A stretch of DNA of 64,000 nt from Daphnia pulex (lineage: Eukaryota > Arthropoda > Branchiopoda > Diplostraca > Daphniidae). The position numbers were made by a program, and so were the translations under genes. Of the stretch, positions 1-12,761 are shown piece after piece. Each line of letters starts with the position of its first letter. Within the stretch, counting starts at the first letter, position 1. The stretch covers positions 3,968,001 through 4,032,000 of the forward strand of contig NC_060017.1 in NCBI RefSeq assembly GCF_021134715.1, given 5' to 3'. The notes under the pieces were generated by a model that was not told where the DNA came from, did not search any database, and saw nothing but the letters and a program-made list of their open reading frames with translations.

Positions 1-447
1 TATAGTCATAATAAAACTGGGGTTTTAATTGATCCTGAAGTGATCTAAGATGAGGACTGACAAGTGACTTTCGGCAGGTTATTTCTAATTCTTCAATGGC
101 CTGGATATCGGGAGACGAAGCTATAATTCTTTGGTTCAGCCTTCAAAGGCGAATTCCGAGGTTGCTATATTAATTACACGTCCGCAAGTTATCTGCTTTT
201 ATCCAATTACTCTTTACTCTCTGTAACATTGATTTCACCCTCGATTTTTCATATATAACAGTTTGCTTAATTGAGCTATTTGAGTGACGAAAACCCTGCC
301 GAAAGTTCTTGTCAATTTTTCCCGAAATCAGTAGTGCACCGTAGAGAGTAAACGCCCCTTTCACCAATCTATTCTTACTTTGTAGAGCGTCTCTTTTCTA
401 TAGATGCGTAGTATACCACAGCAATTGACAACTATTTTTCTTTACAG

Positions 448-693
448 GAGGAGCTAAAAAATAGTTGTTCCAGAAAATGCCTGAATAAAGACAGCAAAGA
501 CGACACGAATCACATCAACCATCCATCAGCAGATCCCTCCATACTTCTCAAATTTTTGCGTTCAGCAATATTTTATTTATTAACAGACAGTGAAAACGGA
601 GCAGAGCATCTACGAGCTATTCAGAGTATACTGGAATTCAGTCCTGAAGAGCGCTATGCGGTAGAACGTGCAGCAAGACACGGTTATTTGTAA
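448..693 (+). CDS. Golgin-like protein, last coding exon (GRIP/GRAB-type C-terminus), partial
   Basis: An acceptor (TTCTTTACAG) precedes an open exon of 82 codons ending in TAA; earlier exons lie outside the window. The tail contains SILLKFLRSAIFYLLTDSE followed by AIQSILEFSPEER. This resembles the helical GRIP/GRAB modules that end golgins and bind Arl1 or Arf1 on Golgi membranes. The usual GRIP tyrosine (YLKNV) is absent, which favours a GRAB-type end as in GMAP-210/TRIP11 over a classical GRIP. Positions 1-447 look like intron, with no open coding frame. Family assignment rests on this short tail alone. Confidence 0.5.
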   Translation, partial: EELKNSCSRKCLNKDSKDDTNHINHPSADPSILLKFLRSAIFYLLTDSENGAEHLRAIQSILEFSPEERYAVERAARHGYL

Positions 694-1206
694 AATTTGC
701 CTTCTCTATCCAGACTCATTTTATTCACGAACATCTCACTACAGAATTTGTTATGACAGCTTCATTAACACGTTATATAAAAATACTATAAGATTTATTT
801 GTTAGCAAATACAAAGCAGTTTTTACCTTCAAATTAAATTTATTTGATTTAGTATTATATTATTACGAGAAGCGTTGCGACCGCAGCGCTACTTTGCCTA
901 GTTATTTTTTAAAGTAGGAGTTGAGTACTACGCTTAATAAGTAATAACTATAGACAAATGGGTTAGATCAAGATTATAAAAAGTTGCTACCGACAACTTT
1001 TTCAGTTTATTGGTGATTTCATCAAGCTTTCGCGTTTCATTTAAATTTGATAGGCTGTTTGTGATTTTTTTCCATGAAAAATAAATCAAAATAGCACATG
1101 GCTTGCTGATTGTACATTTAATGATTTTTTTTTCAGTCTTTTATAGCCTAAGTCATGTGCTGTTTTGATTTTTTAAAATAGAAAAAAAAATAAATAAAGG
1201 CTCTCA
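694..1206. other. AT-rich 3' flank of the golgin-like gene
   Basis: No coding signal was seen. The stretch is AT-rich with poly-T and poly-A runs. An AATAAA hexamer lies near 1193-1198, just before the repeat element, but it is far from the stop codon and may not be the signal in use. Confidence 0.4.
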
Positions 1207-1489
1207 CTAGGTGGCTAAAATTTAAGTCCACTAGACGGCGCGGGTGTCTTTTTAGAAAACATATTCGGCCATTATTTAACGAGACACTGATCGAGAAGGT
1301 ATGCGTTAGGATGTGACATGTGGTATACTTTTTCCTGACATTTTTCGTCGTACAAAATGGTAATTCCTACCTGTATTCTTTAAGGTTATCAAATGTAAAA
1401 TTTGTGTGTGCTTAATTTACAGGTAACATGTCCTTCAGTTTATACTTGGCAATCCGGCCAATTCCATCTGATCCCGTGCCTGAAACTGC

Positions 1490-2020
1490 TGTACATTTTC
1501 TCAAAATGTCGTCTTTTGCCGTATGTACCGGCTGTACGTTTCGTCACATGCTGAAATACTTCAGAACAGTAAAGGTACTTATTTTGATCAAATTTTTAAC
1601 CCTGAGGTTACACATTAGTTATTTTATGGTTTTCTTATAGTAATTTTATTTTTCTGTTAGCAGCCTGGAGCCTGGTGAGGTCTGAGCTTCTTCATTGCAG
1701 TCCCATGTGCACATTGATTTGTTACAACCAACTGGCGAAAGGTGTACCTCTTGCAGGCTTACTACCTGTACTGGTTGTAGTTTTCGTCACATGCAAAGAA
1801 CAATTTCAAGTAATTAAGTTTGTAAACTTTTTTTTTACAGTAAGGCTACACATTTGTTGATGACAAGCTCTTTGCTTTATTTCTGTTGACTTTTCAGTTA
1901 TAAGGCAATTTCAGAAGCTTGCCAACTGTAGATTTCTTTGTTACATTAAAATTTTTTTTAAGTAATTGGATTGCTTAGTTAAAATTATTCTGTCTGTATC
2001 GGTTGTATGTACAACCCATG
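1490..2020 (+). repeat. Degenerate direct repeats of about 230 bp
   Basis: Two to three related segments follow each other, near 1490-1640, 1715-1870 and 1921-2020. They share blocks such as TTTCGTCACATGC and a 'tgtac-ggttgta' core, followed by a run leading to 'gaggttacacatt' or 'aaggctacacatt'. They lie inside the left part of the element, outside the inverted repeat arms. Their reading frames are short and not conserved between copies, so they are not treated as genes. Confidence 0.45.
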
Positions 2021-2809
2021 CAGAAACACTTGACAGCAAGATTAAGTGTGTTATGTCAACCTATTTCCAATCAAATTTAATTAATTGTTGACGAGTAGAT
2101 CTAGATCCTATTTTGTACCTGAACCGAATGTGTTACATCTTCAATGGACTAGTGGTTTTATGATTCAATTTCGATGGGGTTGAACTAGACTTACTATTAT
2201 TGTAAGTTGGGGAGTCTTGCCAAGTGTAGATGCTATTGTAAAATTTATGGTATTAGAATGGTAACGAGCACAAATTCCAAAATAGATCATCCTTTTAGTT
2301 TCGAGGGACTGTTTAGTTCAACTTATGCCTTTCATAATATTACATCACACGAGACATTTCCTTCTCAATATTAATTAAATATTTTTTCAATTGTTTTAAT
2401 AACATATGAGTATGAGCTGCATCCAGTTGGTGGAAGTTGTGAACATATGTTAGCTGTTGCAATCAGTTTGTGAGGCACCAATGCAGAAACCAGAAATGAT
2501 AAGGTAACTGTTCATTTATTTCTATTTAAGAAAGCTTTAGAGTATTAAGTAATGGGATACCAGAGAGTAGATTTCTGTGCTAAATATTGTAACTTTCTGG
2601 TGAAGTCTGTGGATGTGTGGTTTTAATTTACATGATTTGATTGTCATCCTTTGCATTTTTTTTTTTTCAAATGGGAAGTATAAAGAAAATTTTCACAAGG
2701 TGATCTTTGGTCATCTTCATGATACCTTTTTTCTGTAGTAATCTAAATTTGAAGTATATCATTGTCTTAACTACAACACATTGCAACCATTTATGATACA
2801 TTTGCAAGC

Positions 2810-4453
2810 TAGTCAAATATCATTTGCATATATTTTTCGTGTTTTGCTTTGCAATTTTTTTTATTATTTTTCAGTTGAGAGATGCATTTTTACTAATCTA
2901 CTTTAACTTTGTGACAAGCATGGCGGATATCTTGCCTTTCTTAACGTGCGGTGCCGTGTCGACAAGATGTCTCTTTGATGAGGTCTTTAGTTCTCTACTA
3001 TGTTGCAGAACAAAAATGTGAAGAAAACAGGAAATCTGAAATGGTAATGATTTGTTATAAGATAAATCAAGTGGGTTAGAATTTTGTTTAAACTTTTGTT
3101 TACGTATGTGTGCTACCTATGCGTATTCTTTGTTTAGAATTTACTTAAGTTAAATATTTGATTTAGATGAAATTTGACTAATTCCTGCTTCTAAATAAGA
3201 CAGCTTTTATGAAAAGAACATCAGCTTGTGAAGTTTTAAATTTTGTTTGATCAAACAGAATAGAAGTTTCCTTCATTCTTAAAAACTTGAAATGAAATCT
3301 TCATATTTGGTCATGTTCTTGATTTATTTTTCTCTTGTTCAATGTAAATTTGAAGAAAATCTTTGCCTTATTAATTACTAAGCGTTTGAAACATTTATTT
3401 TACGATTGTAAGCTAAAGATAAACATCACTCGCATTTTTTTATTTGCTTTGTAAATTTTATTTTCTGGTATATTTTTTCACATTTCAAAAAAATAATGTT
3501 ATTGTTTCACTTACGTTCTTTTGCTTTGTAGGTTTCCATGGTCAGTTTGATGTTTGAGCTGTTTATGGTGTTGCTGTTTGGTGTGAAGTGGGTTTGCAGT
3601 CATTTTCCACCCGAGAGATGCGCTGAAATGGAGCTTTGTCAGACTTGCAGTTCAACATCATACTTAGATTTGTTATTTCCCTATGTTTGTGTCCGTGAAT
3701 ATTGAGCTGTTGGGCAAAACAGTCAACAGTTAACCTGTTTTGTGTGTGTGTGTGTTACGGAAGCTGCATCATTGTTTTGTTGAATTGTCATTGTGTCTGC
3801 AGTTTACCGTTTATAAGTTAGGAAGGGAAAAAACAGAATTTTGGGGAATTTATATCAAACAAATAATAAACAAGGTTTCGGGATTGGGAAAGGAATGTGG
3901 AGGTTGTCAGGTGGGAGGGTGATGACTTGAATTTTCATATCTCAATATATAATGAGGTATGTTAATATGTACTGACGCGATAAATGTGGATGAAAACTTA
4001 ATAAGTCCATAACAACTCCTATAATGTTACAATGTATTACATAATTTACCTTAAAACATACAACATCTTAATCCTCCAACCTTTAACCTAATTAATCTAT
4101 AATCCCATAACCCATGGTCCTACAACACAATATTTAATTAACCCATTTCCCTACAACATCCATATTCCTTCTACCTATTAACTAATAACCCTGTAAACAC
4201 AACTGTTGTATGTTTTAAATTAAATATTATATTGTAACATTATAAGAATTGTTGTTGATCTATTAACTCTTTATCCAAATTTATCACATTAGTACATTTA
4301 AACAAACTTCATTATATTTTGAAATATGAAAATACATGTTATCACCTACCAACCTCCACATTTCTTTCCTAATTCCGCAACCTTGCTTATTATTTGTTTG
4401 ATAATATTACCATAATATTCTGTTTTTTCCCAACCGATAATTTACAGACACTA
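2810..4453 (+). repeat. Left arm of long inverted repeat
   Basis: This arm is the reverse complement of 4556-6215. Long blocks are identical as far as could be checked by eye; for example 3361-3720 matches 5300-5660 except for a CA-repeat length change. A few substitutions appear outside about 3360. More diverged pairing continues outward (2258-2610 against 6245-6625). About 160 bp of the left side (near 2610-2770) are missing from the right arm at the matching place. Confidence 0.85.
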
Positions 4454-4555
4454 TATCAATTCAACATATATTAAATTAATATATTATATCTTATAAAGTT
4501 AAATTTTTTTTTAATTTAATTTTTATTATAAATTTGTAATATTGTATTAGTGTTT

Positions 4556-6215
4556 TTATTGTAATTTATCGGTTATAGGTTAGGAAGGGAAAAAACAGAA
4601 TATTTTGGAATTTTTATCAAACAAATAATAAGCAAGGTTGCGGAATTAGGAAAGAAATGTGGAGGTTGGTAGGTGATAACATGTATTTTCATATTTCAAA
4701 ATATAATGAAGTTTGTTTAAATGTACTAATGTGATAAATTTGGATAAAGAGTTAATAGATCAACAACAATTCTTATAATGTTACAATATAATATTTAATT
4801 TAAAACATACAACAGTTGTGTTTACAGGGTTATTAGTTAATAGGTAGAAGGAATATGGATGTTGTAGGGAAATGGGTTAATTAAATATTGTGTTGTAGGA
4901 CCATGGGTTATGGGATTATAGATTAATTAGGTTAAAGGTTGGAGGATTAAGATGTTGTATGTTTTAAGGTAAATTATGTAATACATTGTAACATTATAGG
5001 AGTTGTTATGGACTTATTAAGTTTTCATCCACATTTATCGCGTCAGTACATATTAACATACCTCATTATATATTGAGATATGAAAATTCAAGTCATCACC
5101 CTCCCACCTGACAACCTCCACATTCCTTTCCCAATCCCGAAACCTTGTTTATTATTTGTTTGATATAAATTCCCCAAAATTCTGTTTTTTCCCTTCCTAA
5201 CTTATAAACGGTAAACTGCAGACACAATGACAATTCAACAAAACAATGATGCAGCTTCCGTAACACAGCACCAACACACACACACACAAAACAGGTTAAC
5301 TGTTGACTGTTTTGCCCAACAGCTCAATATTCACGGACACAAACATAGGGAAATAACAAATCTAAGTATGATGTTGAACTGCAAGTCTGACAAAGCTCCA
5401 TTTCAGCGCATCTCTCGGGTGGAAAATGACTGCAAACCCACTTCACACCAAACAGCAACACCATAAACAGCTCAAACATCAAACTGACCATGGAAACCTA
5501 CAAAGCAAAAGAACGTAAGTGAAACAATAACATTATTTTTTTGAAATGTGAAAAAATATACCAGAAAATAAAATTTACAAAGCAAATAAAAAAATGCGAG
5601 TGATGTTTATCTTTAGCTTACAATCGTAAAATAAATGTTTCAAACGCTTAGTAATTAATAAGGCAAAGATTTTCTTCAAATTTACATTGAACAAGAGAAA
5701 AATAAATCAAGAACATGACCAAATATGAAGATTTCATTTCAAGTTTTTAAGAATGAAGGAAATTTCTATTCTGTTTGATCAAAACAAAATTTAAAACTTC
5801 ACAAGCTGATGTTCTTTTCATAAAAGCTGTCTTATTTAGAAGCAGGAATCAATCAAATTTCATCTAAATAAATTGTTTAACTTAAGTAAATTCTAAACAA
5901 AGAATACGCATAGGTAGCACACATACGTAAACAAAAGTTTAAGCAAAATTCTAACCCACTTGATTTATCTTATAACAAATCATTACCATTTCAGATTTCC
6001 TGTTTTCTTCACATTTTTGTTCTGCAACATAGTAGAGAACTAGAGATCTCATCAAAGAGACATCTTGCTGACACGGCACCGCACGTTAAGAAAGGCAAGA
6101 TATCCGCCATGCTTGTCACAAAGTTAAAGTAGATTAGTAAAAATGCATCTCTCAACTGAAAAATAATAAAAAAATTGCAAAGCAAAACACGAAAAATATA
6201 TGCAAATGATATTTG
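4556..6215 (-). repeat. Right arm of long inverted repeat
   Basis: This is the reverse complement of the left arm, with an AT-rich spacer of about 100 bp (4454-4555) between them. Each arm is itself partly self-complementary. One block of about 100 bp, recognisable by AACAAATAATAA and GAATGTGGAGG-like sequence, occurs four times in alternating orientation: near 3817-3916 (+), 4345-4447 (-), 4575-4675 (+) and 5100-5200 (-). A single strand could fold into a hairpin of more than 1.5 kb. Confidence 0.85.
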
Positions 6216-7311
6216 ACTAGTTTGCAAATGTATCATAAATGGTTGCACCAAAATGGGTTCACCAGAAAGTTACAATATTTAGAACAGAAATCTACTCTCT
6301 GCTGGTATCCCATTACTTAATAATCTAAAGCTTTCTTGGATAGAAATAAATGAACGTAGTTACCTTATCATTTCTGGTTTCTGCATTGGTGCCTCACAAA
6401 CTGATTGCAACAGCTAACATATATGTTCACAACTTCCACCAACTGGATGCAGCTCGATGCAGCTCATACTCAGATGCTGTTAAAAACAATTGAAAAAATA
6501 TTAAATCAATATTGAGAAGAAACTTTCTTGTTGGATGTAATATAATGAAAGGGATACAATTAAACTTAACAGTCCCTCGAAACTACAAGAATACACTATT
6601 TAGAAATTGTGCTCACTTTAAGCTTGCAACCGTATCATGTGTTTGCAACATGTTGTAGTTGAGGCAATCATACAACTTTAGATTACCAGAGCAAAAGAAA
6701 TCATGAAGATGAAGATCATTTTGTGAAAATTTTCTTAACATTTTTTTCAAGTTGAAGGGGAATTTCTGTACTGATTGATTAGAAACTGACAACAAATTTA
6801 CCACAAAAGCTGTCTTATTTGAAAGCACGAAATAAGATGTTACTTGTTTTCGACATCAAGAACAAAATGCTAACCAACTTATTTTACCTTAAAAGTACAT
6901 TTACCATTTCAGATTTCCTGTTTTCATCACATTTTGTCTTGCAATATAGTAGAGACCCTCTCAAAGACACACCTACATGACACGGCAGCGATCACGTGGA
7001 TAAAGGCAAGATCTTCGACATGCTTTTACAAAATAAATTGAAGTCGATTAGAAACTGGACTTCCAAAAAGTCAAAACTCTCATAATTGACTTACTTGCTT
7101 TAGAATTATTCACTTTCGATTCAGCTTTGTCGAATGGCGTGGAAACATTTATAAAATTTAAAATCGAAGAACACCACCATTAAGCACCAACACATTCCCG
7201 TACACTGTCTCAAAAGCTAATGGCGGCTTCGTCACTCACGAACAGACACTCCGCCATCTGGTGGACACAATTTTATACACCTAGACAAACGACATATTCA
7301 AGAAAATTTGT

Positions 7312-7349
7312 GGTACCGCGGGGCACCCGCGTCCCGCGGTAGCGGTACC
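7312..7349. repeat. GC-rich short palindrome
   Basis: GGTACCGC and GCGGTACC flank a GC-rich core that itself contains CCGCG and CGCGG. It stands out in AT-rich surroundings 28 bp outside the right end of the repeat element. Function is unknown; it could be a scar or a structured site. Confidence 0.6.
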
Positions 7350-9106
7350 ATTCACCATTGGAGGACATTGGCGTTTGGCCGTTTGCCTAGAGCAGGCCAC
7401 CAAATATCTCAAAGGCGGACACCTCATGGCCCTTTCTTTATTTAAAGACTGGAAAAAAATTTCTGGATTTTTTCACCACATTGTGCAACTTTACTGTACA
7501 ACAAAACTTCTGAAACCTGTCTTGACTTGTTATGGTCTCACATAGCGATTCCCACATAGCTCATAACTAAACACAAAAAATATTATTGGGAAAGATAAAC
7601 TAACTCTAACTCTGTGCATTCCAGTCGTTTGGGGAGATGTCACACAGCAGTCCATATGTGAATGAATTCTGGCAAAATTATACCAAAGTCTCGAACAGTC
7701 AAAAGTGTCTCAACATATTATTCAGTGTCAAGCAGTTATTCCACAACATGTTCCTTGATAAAAAAAAAAGAAATACAACACATTTTCTTCTCTAAGATCT
7801 TGCAGATCAGATTTTCGTTAGGAGATTCTTATTGTTATTTAATTCTAGTCTGATAGTGTACTTAATTGTAATACTACTTCTCCCTGGAATCACAATGCGT
7901 ATTTTAGGGACACGAGAAATTGAGAACAATCACAGCATCAAACGTCCAAATCGGTGACGGGATCATGGCGGGATCATGGCGGGCTGTCATTTTGAAAGAG
8001 GAGGAATGGGCAGGGTTGTACGATAGCGGAAGTAATCATTTAGAAGCTTATGAGACGCCTTAGATTAAATGGACTAAATTACCATTAGTCCATTACGGGA
8101 TCACGGAATAACCAATTACTATTTACCAAAGACAAAGGTTTCATTGATTGAAATACATTGAAAGAGGGTCACGTTTCCGTTGAAAAGGCTTTTTGCATCC
8201 GTTTTTAAAGAACAGGTTGCGTTCTTTTGGTATTGACATGCCCACCATGGACATGCCGTGTAATTAGTATGATTTAAACTTACCAATTAGGCAACTACTA
8301 TTTAAAAATGAAACGTGAAACCTTGGTAATATCGCCAATTAACTCCAGCTCCTCCCAGAGGCCGGCAGGGAACCTGGCGATGCAAGTCGCGTAGCACAAT
8401 TTACTAAACCGTTAACGGTTGCAGCCTATGTCATCAATAACGCTGTGGAACAGTTAACAAATGTTTTCCTCGAATACTGCACCCTAGATAGCGAACTAGT
8501 CAAGCTGTACTAACGGTTTACCAATTCAAAACAGGGCATTAAGAACTGTGATTAAATAAGGCATCTTATTGATGGCAGTGCACTAAGTCTAAATAATGAT
8601 GAAGTCATGAAGATGAACCTTTACATTTCCCGTGAAACGTGGTACGAACCATTGCCATAGGTCAAGTACGGGGAATATTGGCCTAGCATTGAGACTAATG
8701 TCCTACTACTATTTACCTTTTCGCCAAGTATTTAATTGTGCTAAAAACGATCGTAACAATATTTAAAATAAAAAATCACTTTTTTCAAGTTTATTTTTCC
8801 ATTTTAAATGCTGATTCAAACCACACGAAGCTCTTCTGTACACCATTAATAAACTAATCATTTTCTTATTTTGTTTTAATAAACCCCAGTTGACCATTGA
8901 CTGACCTCTGCACAATTTTGCTTCCAACTCATCTTACTCCAGATTTATCCCTTTTTCATCAACACAGTAAAATGAAAAAGAAATTAATATTAATAATAAG
9001 GAAAAAAAAATAGTTGTAATATGTATATATATAGAAGGGAAACTGCTGAAATCCAGACCTATCAAACACTACAAGACTCCACAGAAGAAATCTTGGTCTT
9101 GAAAAT
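7350..9106. other. Gene-free stretch between the repeat element and NIPSNAP
   Basis: No coding exon could be supported. A short tandem of GGGATCATGGC occurs near 7960-7982, and a 14-bp palindrome AACCGTTAACGGTT lies near 8406. The part closest to 9107 probably includes the NIPSNAP 3' untranslated region. Confidence 0.5.
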
Positions 9107-10573
9107 TCACTGAGTAGGTGAGAATGGAAGTGGGACCATGATCTTAGTGTGCATCTGTTGAATTAGGGGTACAGTATAGGCCACGCATTCATCCCATCCA
9201 GGTTTTCTCCAAGCTGCTTCACGAGTTTCCTTACGTGACTGAAGGTCTGAATATGCTGCAAAAAATTAAATTTATGAAACGATTTTAGGTGGTTTAATTG
9301 GGAGTAATAATGTCTGATTTTTCTACCCCAGATGTGATGAACATTATATAGTCTTCCAATTTGAGAAAAAAAGCCAGCAAACGCCTCGTCGTTTTCACGC
9401 CTAAAACTGATGGCTCTTGCCCAATTGTTACCCCACTCAATCATCGTTCCTGGCTTTAGAACGTAATTGCGGACCTCATACACGTTGGAGTCTTTTCGAC
9501 TCTCAATCTATTGAAATAAACTCGAATGGCAATACGAAATAAGGGAATTTATGTGATTGTAATACCTGAGGCCAAAAGCTAAAGGTGAGAACGTATTGGT
9601 TATGTCGAGCACGAATGCACTGGCCTTGCTCATTCCACAAACGGCGATACTCCTGAAAATAGATTAAAATTTCAATAAACCAACATACATGTTGACGTTC
9701 GAAAATTTATACTTGCATTGTTCTTTGCAAAAGTTACGCGTGCTCTGTCAATTTCAGCATAACCTCCAATGTAGCGCCAAACGTGAAATGCTTGATCCTG
9801 ATCACCCACAATCACTGACCAGCTTCCAACTAATTCAGCATTGATACCAGATGAGCCCATGAGCTGGCAATGCTTTTCACTGAAATTATGTGTCAAAAAC
9901 AGATCTTGTAGTGTCTAACCATAAGGAAGCATATCTGTGAATTACTATCCATTTTCAACTTAAGCAAACTAAATTTAAATCATTATATATCATGTTAACA
10001 TTTGTTAAAGGACAATACATGAAAGGTGACAGCTAACATTAATTTTTAAACTAGATTGAGCTTCAAAATTAGTTCAAACAGATAATTTATCTTTTTAAAA
10101 TGTAACGAAAACCACCATTTTAAACCTGAAAAGAGTGTATCTAAAAGCTGTTTAAGTGCTACCATTGCATTAAGATATGTTGAGACATCAGAAATTATTA
10201 TAAAAAAGTAACATACTAATTTGAAATGTATTTGTCCATCATGTCAGGCCTAATGTTGTGAGTTTGCAGTTCGTAGATGACATCTTTATCAGAGAGAAGG
10301 CGAGAATGAGACTCCTTTGTTGGTTCAATTTTTCGAACAAACACTTTGGAAAACCAATTATCTTTTGATTCATTCCTGAAATTGTGACTAGTGGACAGGG
10401 TCCTAAATTGAAATAAATATTGTGTATTTTCAAAATAATCATAGTATATAGCCGAAGACACTAAATTTAGGGAAAACACAGAAATTTAATTATTACCTGG
10501 TACAAGACGGCGAGTTATACACGATTCTAATGCCTGTCACCAAATTCTTGAGCTTTACAACAGCTGACGCCAT
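9107..10573 (-). CDS. Nipsnap: NIPSNAP family mitochondrial protein
   Basis: Six exons join to a 280-residue protein: 10573-10497, 10402-10217, 9879-9717, 9652-9566, 9507-9327 and 9255-9107. The first 25 residues are basic and hydrophobic without acids, like a mitochondrial presequence. The family core is clear in the second half: [29 protein letters not shown] and AWRKPGWDE, ending in PFSPTQ. Length and layout match NIPSNAP1/2, proteins of mitochondria linked to mitophagy signalling in vertebrates. Intron 3 fits only if it uses a GC donor (GCAAGT after codon 142). A GT donor 4 bases later breaks the frame of the well-conserved next exon. Confidence 0.93.
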
Positions 10574-11054
10574 TTTCCTCAGTTTATATGCAAGTCTATG
10601 AAATCAGCAGAGGTCTATGTATGTCTATTCAAGAAGCAACTTGAAGCCGGAAAGCAGCCGAAATTTCTATGGCAAGCGCTGCCTAATTTATTAACCGAAA
10701 TTGTTTCATTATTTTTTTATATATATTTGTTTTATTTAAAGATCAAATTATTCCGTCGGTTACTTCCCTTCACAGTCGATTACCGATCTGATCTAGCAAA
10801 GAAGGCATTATAAATTATTGAAACGTATTTCATTATTCTAATTATTTCCATTTTTTAAGAGCAAATTACCTATGCGAAATAGGTTTTCCAAAATTATTTT
10901 TTCTTGTAATACACGTTGAATCACAAAAAATATTTTATTTGAATTTGTCTTTTTCCCAAAAATTACCTGAAAAAGCATTTTGATTGGTTGTCATAGTGAT
11001 CAATAAACGAATCCCAGGCTACATTTATTTGTGTGTAACATTCTTTATCGCAAA
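10574..11054. promoter_or_regulatory. Divergent promoter region between NIPSNAP and the coiled-coil gene
   Basis: About 480 bp separate the two start codons, which point away from each other. A shared or back-to-back promoter is implied by position only. No TATA element was assigned. The sequence is AT-rich. Confidence 0.5.
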
Positions 11055-12761
11055 ATGGAACTTCGCAATGAGCTAATGTAAGAAGTTTATAATTTCTTAA
11101 TCTTTTTTATAAACAATAAATTTTTTTCGTATATCAAGTCGACCTTCTCGCAATAAGCATCGTTCAAACGCTGTCACGGCTATGCGAGTCATTGTAAGTA
11201 AAACAAAAAAATTCCCATTGGATTAGATTTGCTGTCTATAAAGACATGAGCATGACGATCAATTAATCATGGCAGGATAGAAGAGAAACTGTGACGCAGT
11301 TGGAGCAAAAGTTGGCCATAAAAAAGAACGAACTTTTACAAGAAGAAGCGATTTCGTTAGAAAAGCAAAGAGCAATAAAAGAAAAGAGGGAGCAACTTGA
11401 ACGCGAAGAGTATCAAAGTTTGCAACTGTTTCAGGTGATACTTAAATGAGTCCAATCTTTTAAATTAATATGAATATATTAAACTATTAATTATAAATTT
11501 GGCTGGAATCCAATAAGTTAAATGGGAAAGTCCGCGAATCTGTTTCTCTGGCTCTGGAACATGATCTAGAAGAATGTCGAAAATTAGACGATGAACAACA
11601 TGCACACTTACTCCAGGTATTATATTTGATCTAGCGTCATGCCCCAGCACACCATGGCTCAATTCCATCAAACAGTTACAATATTTGTATTTCTTGTTAA
11701 TATTACTCTTTATGTTTATTTTCATCTTTTTTAGATGGAGAACCTTGAAAGCGAATTAACCGAGTTGACTACCAAACTGGAGTTCTTGCAAAACTATCAG
11801 GTACTAAGAACATTACCGTACTGCACGTACAAGCATACCCACCAAATTAATCGTGTTTATCTTTTCCAAATCGTATACGATTACTCAGAACACTATATCT
11901 GACGTTGAAGGATTCGACCGAGTAGTCAGCAAATTCCAAGAGTTAAATCAAACGTGGCAAAATATGGCAAATGAATATCGTTCAATTCTATTCGATGCAG
12001 CGAGGTCATCGTTCAAGAAGGGTCATCAAACGGTAAAACTTTGTGTTTGTCATCAAATCCCATATAAGCGATCTTTGTTACTCACAACATTGCAGGAAAT
12101 CCTCATGCGACATCTACTTGGAATTAATTCGGATGATAGTCAACGAGCTACAGATGCGTCTGAGTCAACAAATCGCAACAAGACGGCTCGAAACTCTCAA
12201 TGGCAAATTAGTACCATGGCAGAGTCGTTCAAGCAACACGGTCACACTTATTTAGCGATTATCAATTTAGCTGCCCACTTGTCCAGTCACCCTATAGCCC
12301 GGACTCTTATGAGCATCGGTGAGTCTAAATCGAATCTCAAGTCGATCAAGCCCAGCAAAAGTCACCTTGGGAAGAAAGAGGAGATGGAGCGGGTTCCTAG
12401 TGTCGAGCAAATTCATCAGCCGGTGCAGGACTACAAAGAGCGATGGAGAACATTGGCCGCGGCTGCCATGGGCGATAGCAGACAATACCGTGGAGAAACG
12501 GATGCCTCCGTTTCTTCGGAGATTGGCAGAACTGCGGACTCGGTTAGTCTTGAAGTGCAGAACAAACTAAGCAATTTGGCGAATATTGATGACTTCGGGG
12601 CATCGTCGACTGGTCCTAAGCAATCAATCATTAATAAAGTCGCCGCTAATAAACTTGGTTTCATCGAGCAAATTCTCTACGACCTAACTTTGATTAAAGA
12701 CGAGATTGAGTTTCATACGGACCCTCTATATTACAACGAGCCTGGGCACTCATTTGCTTAA
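11055..12761 (+). CDS. Unrecognised coiled-coil protein
   Basis: Seven exons give 403 residues: 11055-11077, 11139-11193, 11276-11434, 11518-11616, 11735-11800, 11889-12032 and 12096-12761. Residues about 27-140 form a charged heptad-rich helix (for example EKQRAIKEKREQLEREEYQ). A globular or flexible tail without a recognised domain follows. The intron at 12033-12095 is 63 bp and in frame, so reading through it would add 21 residues. Inside the last exon a second open frame (about 12098-12253) also looks helix-like (DIYLELIRMIVNELQMRLSQ), so alternative splicing or a different exon structure there is possible. The frame used here is preferred because it stays open to 12761. Confidence 0.7.

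Follow-up and report, generated by a model that had tools for sequence, protein, structure and literature searches.

A partly decayed giant palindrome in Daphnia pulex and a dispersed family with arms probably maintained by gene conversion

Outside special settings such as sex chromosomes, long near-perfect palindromes are generally regarded as too unstable to last. How does one come to persist on contig C1 of Daphnia pulex, and to what kind of element does it belong? The locus lies in a stretch of 64,000 nucleotides (C1:3968001-4032000; hereafter the window), and the positions given below are window coordinates unless a locus is named. Based on our findings, we propose that the window palindrome likely belongs, in partly decayed form, to a family of giant palindromes with many dispersed copies, the arms of which are maintained by arm-to-arm gene conversion.

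The palindrome and its relatives

Self-BLAST and arm alignment both show that the palindrome is real, and the coordinates given for it by an original prediction, made from the letters of the window, proved accurate within tens of bases. The stretch 2782-6247 can be aligned with its reverse complement (96.1% identity across 3,502 columns, gaps included; E=0), and the two outer arms, 2266-2604 and 6258-6614, pair at 86.9% (E=1e-118). The arm alignment bears out the predicted contrast between near-identical inner and diverged outer arms: the inner arms differ by 16 mismatches and 3 gap events per 1,649 bp, whereas the outer arms, beyond a one-sided heterology, differ by 27 mismatches (8.0%) and 7 gap events per 338 bp. 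Twelve of the inner-arm mismatches fall in 2782-3266, and the interval 3267-4404 is free of mismatches, with one gap event at 3750. The spacer at the axis is AT-rich, as had been said, but by the ungapped repeat finder it measures 155 bp rather than about 100 bp. Beyond the original prediction, homology reaches out to 1995 and 7310, each arm contains a nested repeat, and 177 bp of the left arm have no mirrored counterpart (Table 1).

The outer limits come from BLAST comparison with sibling palindromes: the left limit of homology is at 1995-2005 in 5 of 6 siblings, and the right limit is at 7310. Within these limits the left arm has decayed, about 1 kb of it having been lost between direct repeats. 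Window 1995-2320 matches positions 1231-1565 of sibling L021, and the window from 2266 on matches L021 from 2521 on; the direct repeats lie at 1516-1563 and 2525-2571 of L021. On the right, 6621-7310 holds older internal copies of 2683-2810 and 2890-3088, at 76-77%.

We searched one assembly of 133,188,837 bp in 13 contigs, comprising 12 chromosomes and C13, a contig whose COX1 contains nine in-frame TGA codons and which we take to be the mitochondrion. (Two similar COX1-like fragments 15 kb apart on C4, at 8522513 and 8537517, are probably nuclear copies of mitochondrial DNA.) At the DNA level, one window arm has 142 genomic matches, and the search for further copies that the original prediction had suggested found palindromic siblings, with candidate loci on all 12 chromosomes. 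Six palindromes belong to the same family, L021 on C1 and L022 to L026 on C6; five of them show 98.0-98.9% BLAST self-identity over 7.8-9.9 kb, and L026 is decayed, at about 81-90%. Eight more related palindromes that we read have arm identities of 97.7-99.85%. In total, there are at least 46 candidate mirror-pair centres of related sequence, and none of the 12 chromosomes lacks one; these are opposite-strand pairs pooled from several searches that scored the best candidates only, so more may exist. Fifteen of the 46, the window included, were read in sequence, on seven chromosomes, and the other 31 are inferred from match positions. In 13 of the 15 read palindromes the arms are 97.7-99.9% alike, and their length is about 6-22 kb. 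Spacer length ranges from about 70-155 bp (L044 and the window) up to 1-3 kb (for example L029/30, L031/32 and L033/34). Of additional note, the candidate loci seem clustered, at 4.4-5.2 Mb of C1, 8.0-11.2 Mb of C5, 2.9-5.3 Mb of C6 and 8.6-9.8 Mb of C12.

Probable gene conversion, growth and decay

Arm interiors pooled over 10 palindromes contain 76 mismatches in 48,853 columns (0.16%), versus a divergence of 5-25% between copies by BLAST identity; left out of this pool are the window and L026, which are decayed, and L025, L044 and L045, which run off the fetched stretch. The outermost 500 columns of the 10 palindromes contain 95 mismatches in 5,000, about 12 times the interior rate. In L044, the innermost of the 250-column bins accounts for all 34 mismatches, with none in the other nineteen. 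A tree built from 14 arm rows places both arms of a palindrome nearest to each other in 5 of 7 palindromes (the window, L021, L022, L023 and L024); the arms of L023 are identical within the tree alignment, as are those of L024, and the arms of L025 are adjacent but unresolved.

The nested inner repeat lies at the same place in 6 of 6 siblings (L021-L026), and a single alignment crosses the axis between the window and 4 of 6 (L021, L022, L024 and L025); for example, window 2266-6246 aligns onto L021 2521-6521 at 88%, straight across the axis. Since these diverged copies have both the axis layout and the nested repeat in common, the inner palindrome is as old as the family, and the copies descend from palindromes. 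A one-time duplication would be expected to give uniform divergence, and homogenisation that fails near ends and heterologies would be expected to give a gradient; the gradient that we see therefore points to conversion. Taken together, the sisterhood of the arms, their common nested structure and the raised divergence at the arm ends indicate, from sequence comparison, ongoing arm-to-arm gene conversion and not recent duplication. The original prediction had offered two explanations for the inner arms. Arm identity, the arm tree and the divergence gradient lend strong support to the first, gene conversion inside the palindrome. The second, a recent inner duplication within an older fold-back element, is not supported, in view of the nested repeat in all six siblings and the alignments across the axis in four of them.

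We suggest a plausible mechanism for this maintenance. The two arms could pair as a hairpin, as a cruciform or following a break in one arm, and repair could then copy one arm onto the other; a near-perfect palindrome would result without selection on any protein. An indel would block pairing, as it may have done at 2604-2782, so that homogenisation would stop there and the outer arms would drift apart. Where a repair tract overran the homologous region, flanking DNA could also be copied across to the opposite arm, and the palindrome would become longer.

Growth of this kind can be seen in L033/34 (about C6:2944583-2963189). Its inner part is common to L031/32 at 94%, and its outer 2.6 kb or so is mirrored, yet absent from L031/32 and L021. 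This outer part encodes ENPP-type phosphodiesterase sequence (E 1.6e-25 to ENPP1): the coding block is intact at C6:2962412-2963065, and its mirror at C6:2944707 carries a stop codon. The other genomic matches to the block number 3, at 32-56% identity. A 5' ENPP exon (PF01663) lies outside the palindrome on the right side, and no counterpart was found in the 2.1 kb that we read beyond the left edge. Because the block is mirrored and its 5' exon lies outside on the right, the palindrome has taken over part of an adjacent gene and mirrored it in the opposite arm as a dead copy; the arms can thus grow. Decay is seen in the window, as described above, in L026, and in the apparently single-arm copies at C9:815373, C9:956298 and C7:8874065, the partners of which may be too diverged to score.

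Several observations weigh against maintenance by conversion, or limit its reach. The decay of L026 and the apparently one-armed copies mean that maintenance is not universal; among the unread candidates, arm identity is unequal in at least two, both on C6 (centres 3133207 and 3284626). In the 14-row tree, the arms of L026 are not sisters, owing either to decay or to conversion from another copy. In a separate comparison, the outer arms of the window did not come out as a resolved sister pair. The outermost 500 columns of L022, L031/32 and L036/37, three of the 10 pooled palindromes, show only 1 mismatch each, and since the palindrome ends were set by BLAST, edge divergence is biased somewhat upward. 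GC-biased conversion is described for mammalian X palindromes in the accessible parts of one account (PMC8981503). In four family-A copies (the window, L021, L023 and L024), arm GC is 31-33%, versus 38-41% outside. These AT-rich arms are opposite to what GC-biased conversion predicts, although a rise in GC is a frequent correlate of conversion and no strict requirement. Conversion is moreover inferred from one assembly, and consensus polishing could raise the apparent identity of arms that are already almost the same.

Table 1. Positions of the palindrome parts and of associated features (window coordinates unless a locus is named)
Feature	Position	Strand	Basis or remark
Whole surviving palindromic family copy, left to right remnant	1995-7310	.	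BLAST homology to sibling palindromes
Outermost left-arm remnant	1995-2320	+	BLAST vs L021; joined to the inner part via a deletion between direct repeats of about 50 bp
Left outer arm, homogenisation lost (8.0% mismatches)	2266-2604	+	Self-BLAST, arm alignment
Left-arm stretch of 177 bp without mirrored counterpart	2605-2781	+	Self-BLAST, arm alignment; site of the identity step
Left inner arm	2782-4431	+	Arm alignment
Conserved exon-like module, about 190 bp	3506-3697	+	After 3' splice-acceptor-like TTCTTTTGCTTTGTAG; mirror at 5332-5523 (-)
Nested older inverted repeat, left arm	3909-4355	.	Repeat finder; 3909-4048 / 4216-4355, about 79%
AT-rich spacer at the axis, 155 bp	4432-4586	.	Ungapped repeat finder; alignment to L021 crosses the axis here
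Right inner arm	4587-6247	-	Self-BLAST, arm alignment
Nested older inverted repeat, right arm	4663-5109	.	Repeat finder; 4663-4802 / 4970-5109, about 79%
Longest listed open reading frame in the window arms	6009-6251		80 aa
Right outer arm, homogenisation lost	6258-6614	-	Self-BLAST, arm alignment
Further right outer arm	6621-7310	-	BLAST; left counterpart within the left-arm deletion
Related end zone	L023:8990-9154; L031:2001-2171; L032:6324-6507; L024:8783-8881
Related palindromes	L027/28 on C8; L029/30 and L036/37 on C2; L031/32 and L033/34 on C6; L035 on C10; L044 on C9; L045 (part) on C5

Element ends, gene remnants and other possible origins

How did the palindromes arise and spread? A fold-back DNA transposon of the FB, Galileo or large miniature inverted-repeat transposable element (MITE) type, with terminal inverted repeats making up nearly the whole element and a transposase supplied from elsewhere, is a possible but unlikely answer, and one that is compatible with conversion between the arms. 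The FB and Galileo elements of Drosophila have long inverted repeats, internal sub-repeats and many copies. The Daphnia family likewise consists of many dispersed copies with an inverted architecture, and its long terminal inverted repeats contain sub-repeats. The right ends of L023 and L024 and the two ends of L031/32 have a related end zone, about 100 bp long, in common, and L026 contains 38 bp of it. Moreover, an exact 18-bp outer end, AATCATCTCAGGTATTTT, is found at the right end of L023 and at both ends of L031/32, where the five bases beside it read ATAAC and ATAAT, 4 of 5 alike, raising the possibility of a target duplication. Unlike in FB and Galileo, however, no motif is common to the ends that we read, which belong to eight palindromes (two ends each, except for L025 with one), and the common end is confined to two palindromes, its exact form having just three genomic occurrences. 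With up to 2 mismatches allowed, the 18-bp end has 25 genomic matches, those 3 exact ones included, and a reversed control has 8. No target duplication was seen by eye at those same ends, the palindrome ends differ from copy to copy, and there was no transposase among 15 open reading frame pieces from palindrome loci, no genome-wide search for one having been made. Arm growth could have masked the original ends. The 18-bp sequence is compatible with an element end present in a few of the C6 copies, or with a common segment copied from one of them to another; it is no family-wide terminus. As for the earlier suggestion that many copies would signify a mobile element, dispersal is therefore seen, but transposition is not supported, there being no family-wide end motif and no transposase seen. 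A Polinton-like large element with terminal repeats, considered on account of matches 12-24 kb apart, was rejected: the intervals that we read (L027-L037) proved palindromic for the most part, and genes of such an element could not be recognised in them.

The palindrome itself could also be the replicating unit, which would homogenise its arms, grow by copying its flanks and spread by fold-back-primed or break-induced replication without a transposase. We regard this scheme as speculative and rather improbable.

The sequence carried by the palindromes bears on a further possibility, a long-hairpin RNA locus. The conserved exon-like module of the window arms is also present in palindromes on several other chromosomes; its splice-acceptor-like tract is identical in 9 of 11 aligned copies, and the AG is kept in 11 of 11. 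Two ideas about the module were tried and rejected. As a coding sequence it would have an open frame of about 60 aa (MVSLMFELF...), which is frame-shifted in L023 and L027, and a splice donor on its minus strand exists only in the window and L021. In L036, L027 and L029 the module sits outward of pieces of a tyrosine-rich repeat gene; this gene points toward the axis, and its sequence is split over several frames. Tyrosine-rich repeat genes are typical of D. pulex. The repeat gene is also multi-frame in L044 and L045, and intact paralogous genes were not found in both arms of these five palindromes. Family A retains only the module and adjoining sequence, and a comparison of the repeat-gene palindrome L044 with sibling L021 gave no BLAST hit. 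None of the 15 open reading frame pieces, those of the repeat gene included, scored above a Pfam family cut-off.

A search with pieces of the repeat gene gave 185 genomic matches, 150 of them listed. Among those listed, 76 form opposite-strand pairs of equal score and query range (37 pairs convergent and 1 divergent), and there is 1 same-strand pair of equal score. Trypsin and cuticle proteins served as control families for the pair counting: by eye, the trypsin matches listed, of 184, contain no equal-score pair within 30 kb, and the 150 cuticle-protein matches listed contain 1 opposite-strand vs 26 same-strand pairs (equal-score rows picked by eye and counted by script). The sole divergent equal-score pair of the repeat gene among the matches listed, C1:4614302-4616043, has 357-codon frames on both sides, about 1 kb apart, and may possibly consist of intact tyrosine-rich repeat genes. 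The family probably arose from a multi-exon tyrosine-rich repeat gene that had been duplicated tail to tail in inverted orientation, and the copies of that gene would now be mostly pseudogenes.

In Drosophila, long-hairpin RNA genes are inverted repeats derived from gene copies. In the Daphnia palindromes, read-through of convergent arms could yield double-stranded RNA and small RNAs against the tyrosine-rich repeat genes, and arm pairing would then be under selection. The strong preponderance of convergent pairs (37, versus 1 divergent), the conserved acceptor-like tract, and the loss of coding frames although pairing is kept would all agree with such a role. However, family A holds just the module and adjoining sequence, L044 has no BLAST hit to L021, and no known RNA family was found by Rfam in window 1-12000. 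The arms of the window family are also much longer than those of the Drosophila genes. We therefore consider a hairpin-RNA function improbable.

Each palindrome could instead be a recent, separate inverted duplication at a common hot-spot, the spacer, with arms alike through youth. Apparent one-arm-plus-spacer copies, such as those on C9 and C7, could be read in this way, and an inverted duplication would likewise carry flanking DNA such as the ENPP sequence. Yet the nested repeat in all siblings and the axis-crossing alignments in four of them persist despite the divergence between copies, and the roughly 12-fold excess of pooled mismatches at the arm ends also speaks against it; we judge recent duplication to be very improbable. 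Finally, although perfect palindromes are a known long-read or assembly artefact, an artefact of assembly or amplification is extremely unlikely here, because the arms differ by scattered substitutions and indels, with outer arms 8% apart, and because homologous palindromes recur at many sites with different flanks.

Some features of the surroundings should also be mentioned. A NIPSNAP-domain exon (PF07978, E 1.7e-14) at window 9163-9483 (-) belongs to a host gene near the palindrome. The window segment 8247-8352, about 105 bp, has 19 diverged, dispersed genomic matches at 74-91%, two of which lie in the L036/L037 arms in mirrored orientation. There are no tRNAs in the window.

Comparison with known systems and significance

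The palindromes of mammalian sex chromosomes recall those described here. According to the accessible parts of the published accounts, mammalian Y and X palindromes have arms more than 99% alike, kept so by gene conversion (PMC8981503), and they expand by mirrored duplication of their flanks and die by losing one arm (PMC6790999). Large inverted repeats, near-identical arms, growth and one-arm loss, as in the VCY palindrome P8, are common to both, so far as those passages go; unlike them, the Daphnia palindromes lie on many chromosomes and carry mostly broken genes. In Caenorhabditis, as far as the available text describes, convergent or divergent inverted paralogous pairs are far closer within a genome than between species, non-coding sequence included (PMC1803023). 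In the examples treated in detail, both arms contain genes and the intergenic arms measure 124-160 bp. The Daphnia arms, by contrast, extend over kilobases and hold mostly broken genes, and their loci make up a dispersed repeat family. Palindromic blocks proposed to permit gene conversion are also described for Adineta vaga and Folsomia candida in the portion of the survey drawn on here (PMC7953838); they are gene-synteny blocks, unlike the Daphnia palindromes, and the same portion places D. pulex among three species that could not be screened for lack of annotation. The open-access literature yielded no account of Daphnia palindromes, fold-back elements, inverted duplications or a repeat motif of this kind.

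If the palindrome were indeed the replicating unit, it would represent a self-maintaining class of repeat that persists as structure and not as sequence. D. pulex is kept as mutation-accumulation clones, and together with dozens of candidate loci such clones would allow conversion, palindrome growth and palindrome death to be counted directly. These counts would reveal whether palindromic structure alone sustains a repeat family.

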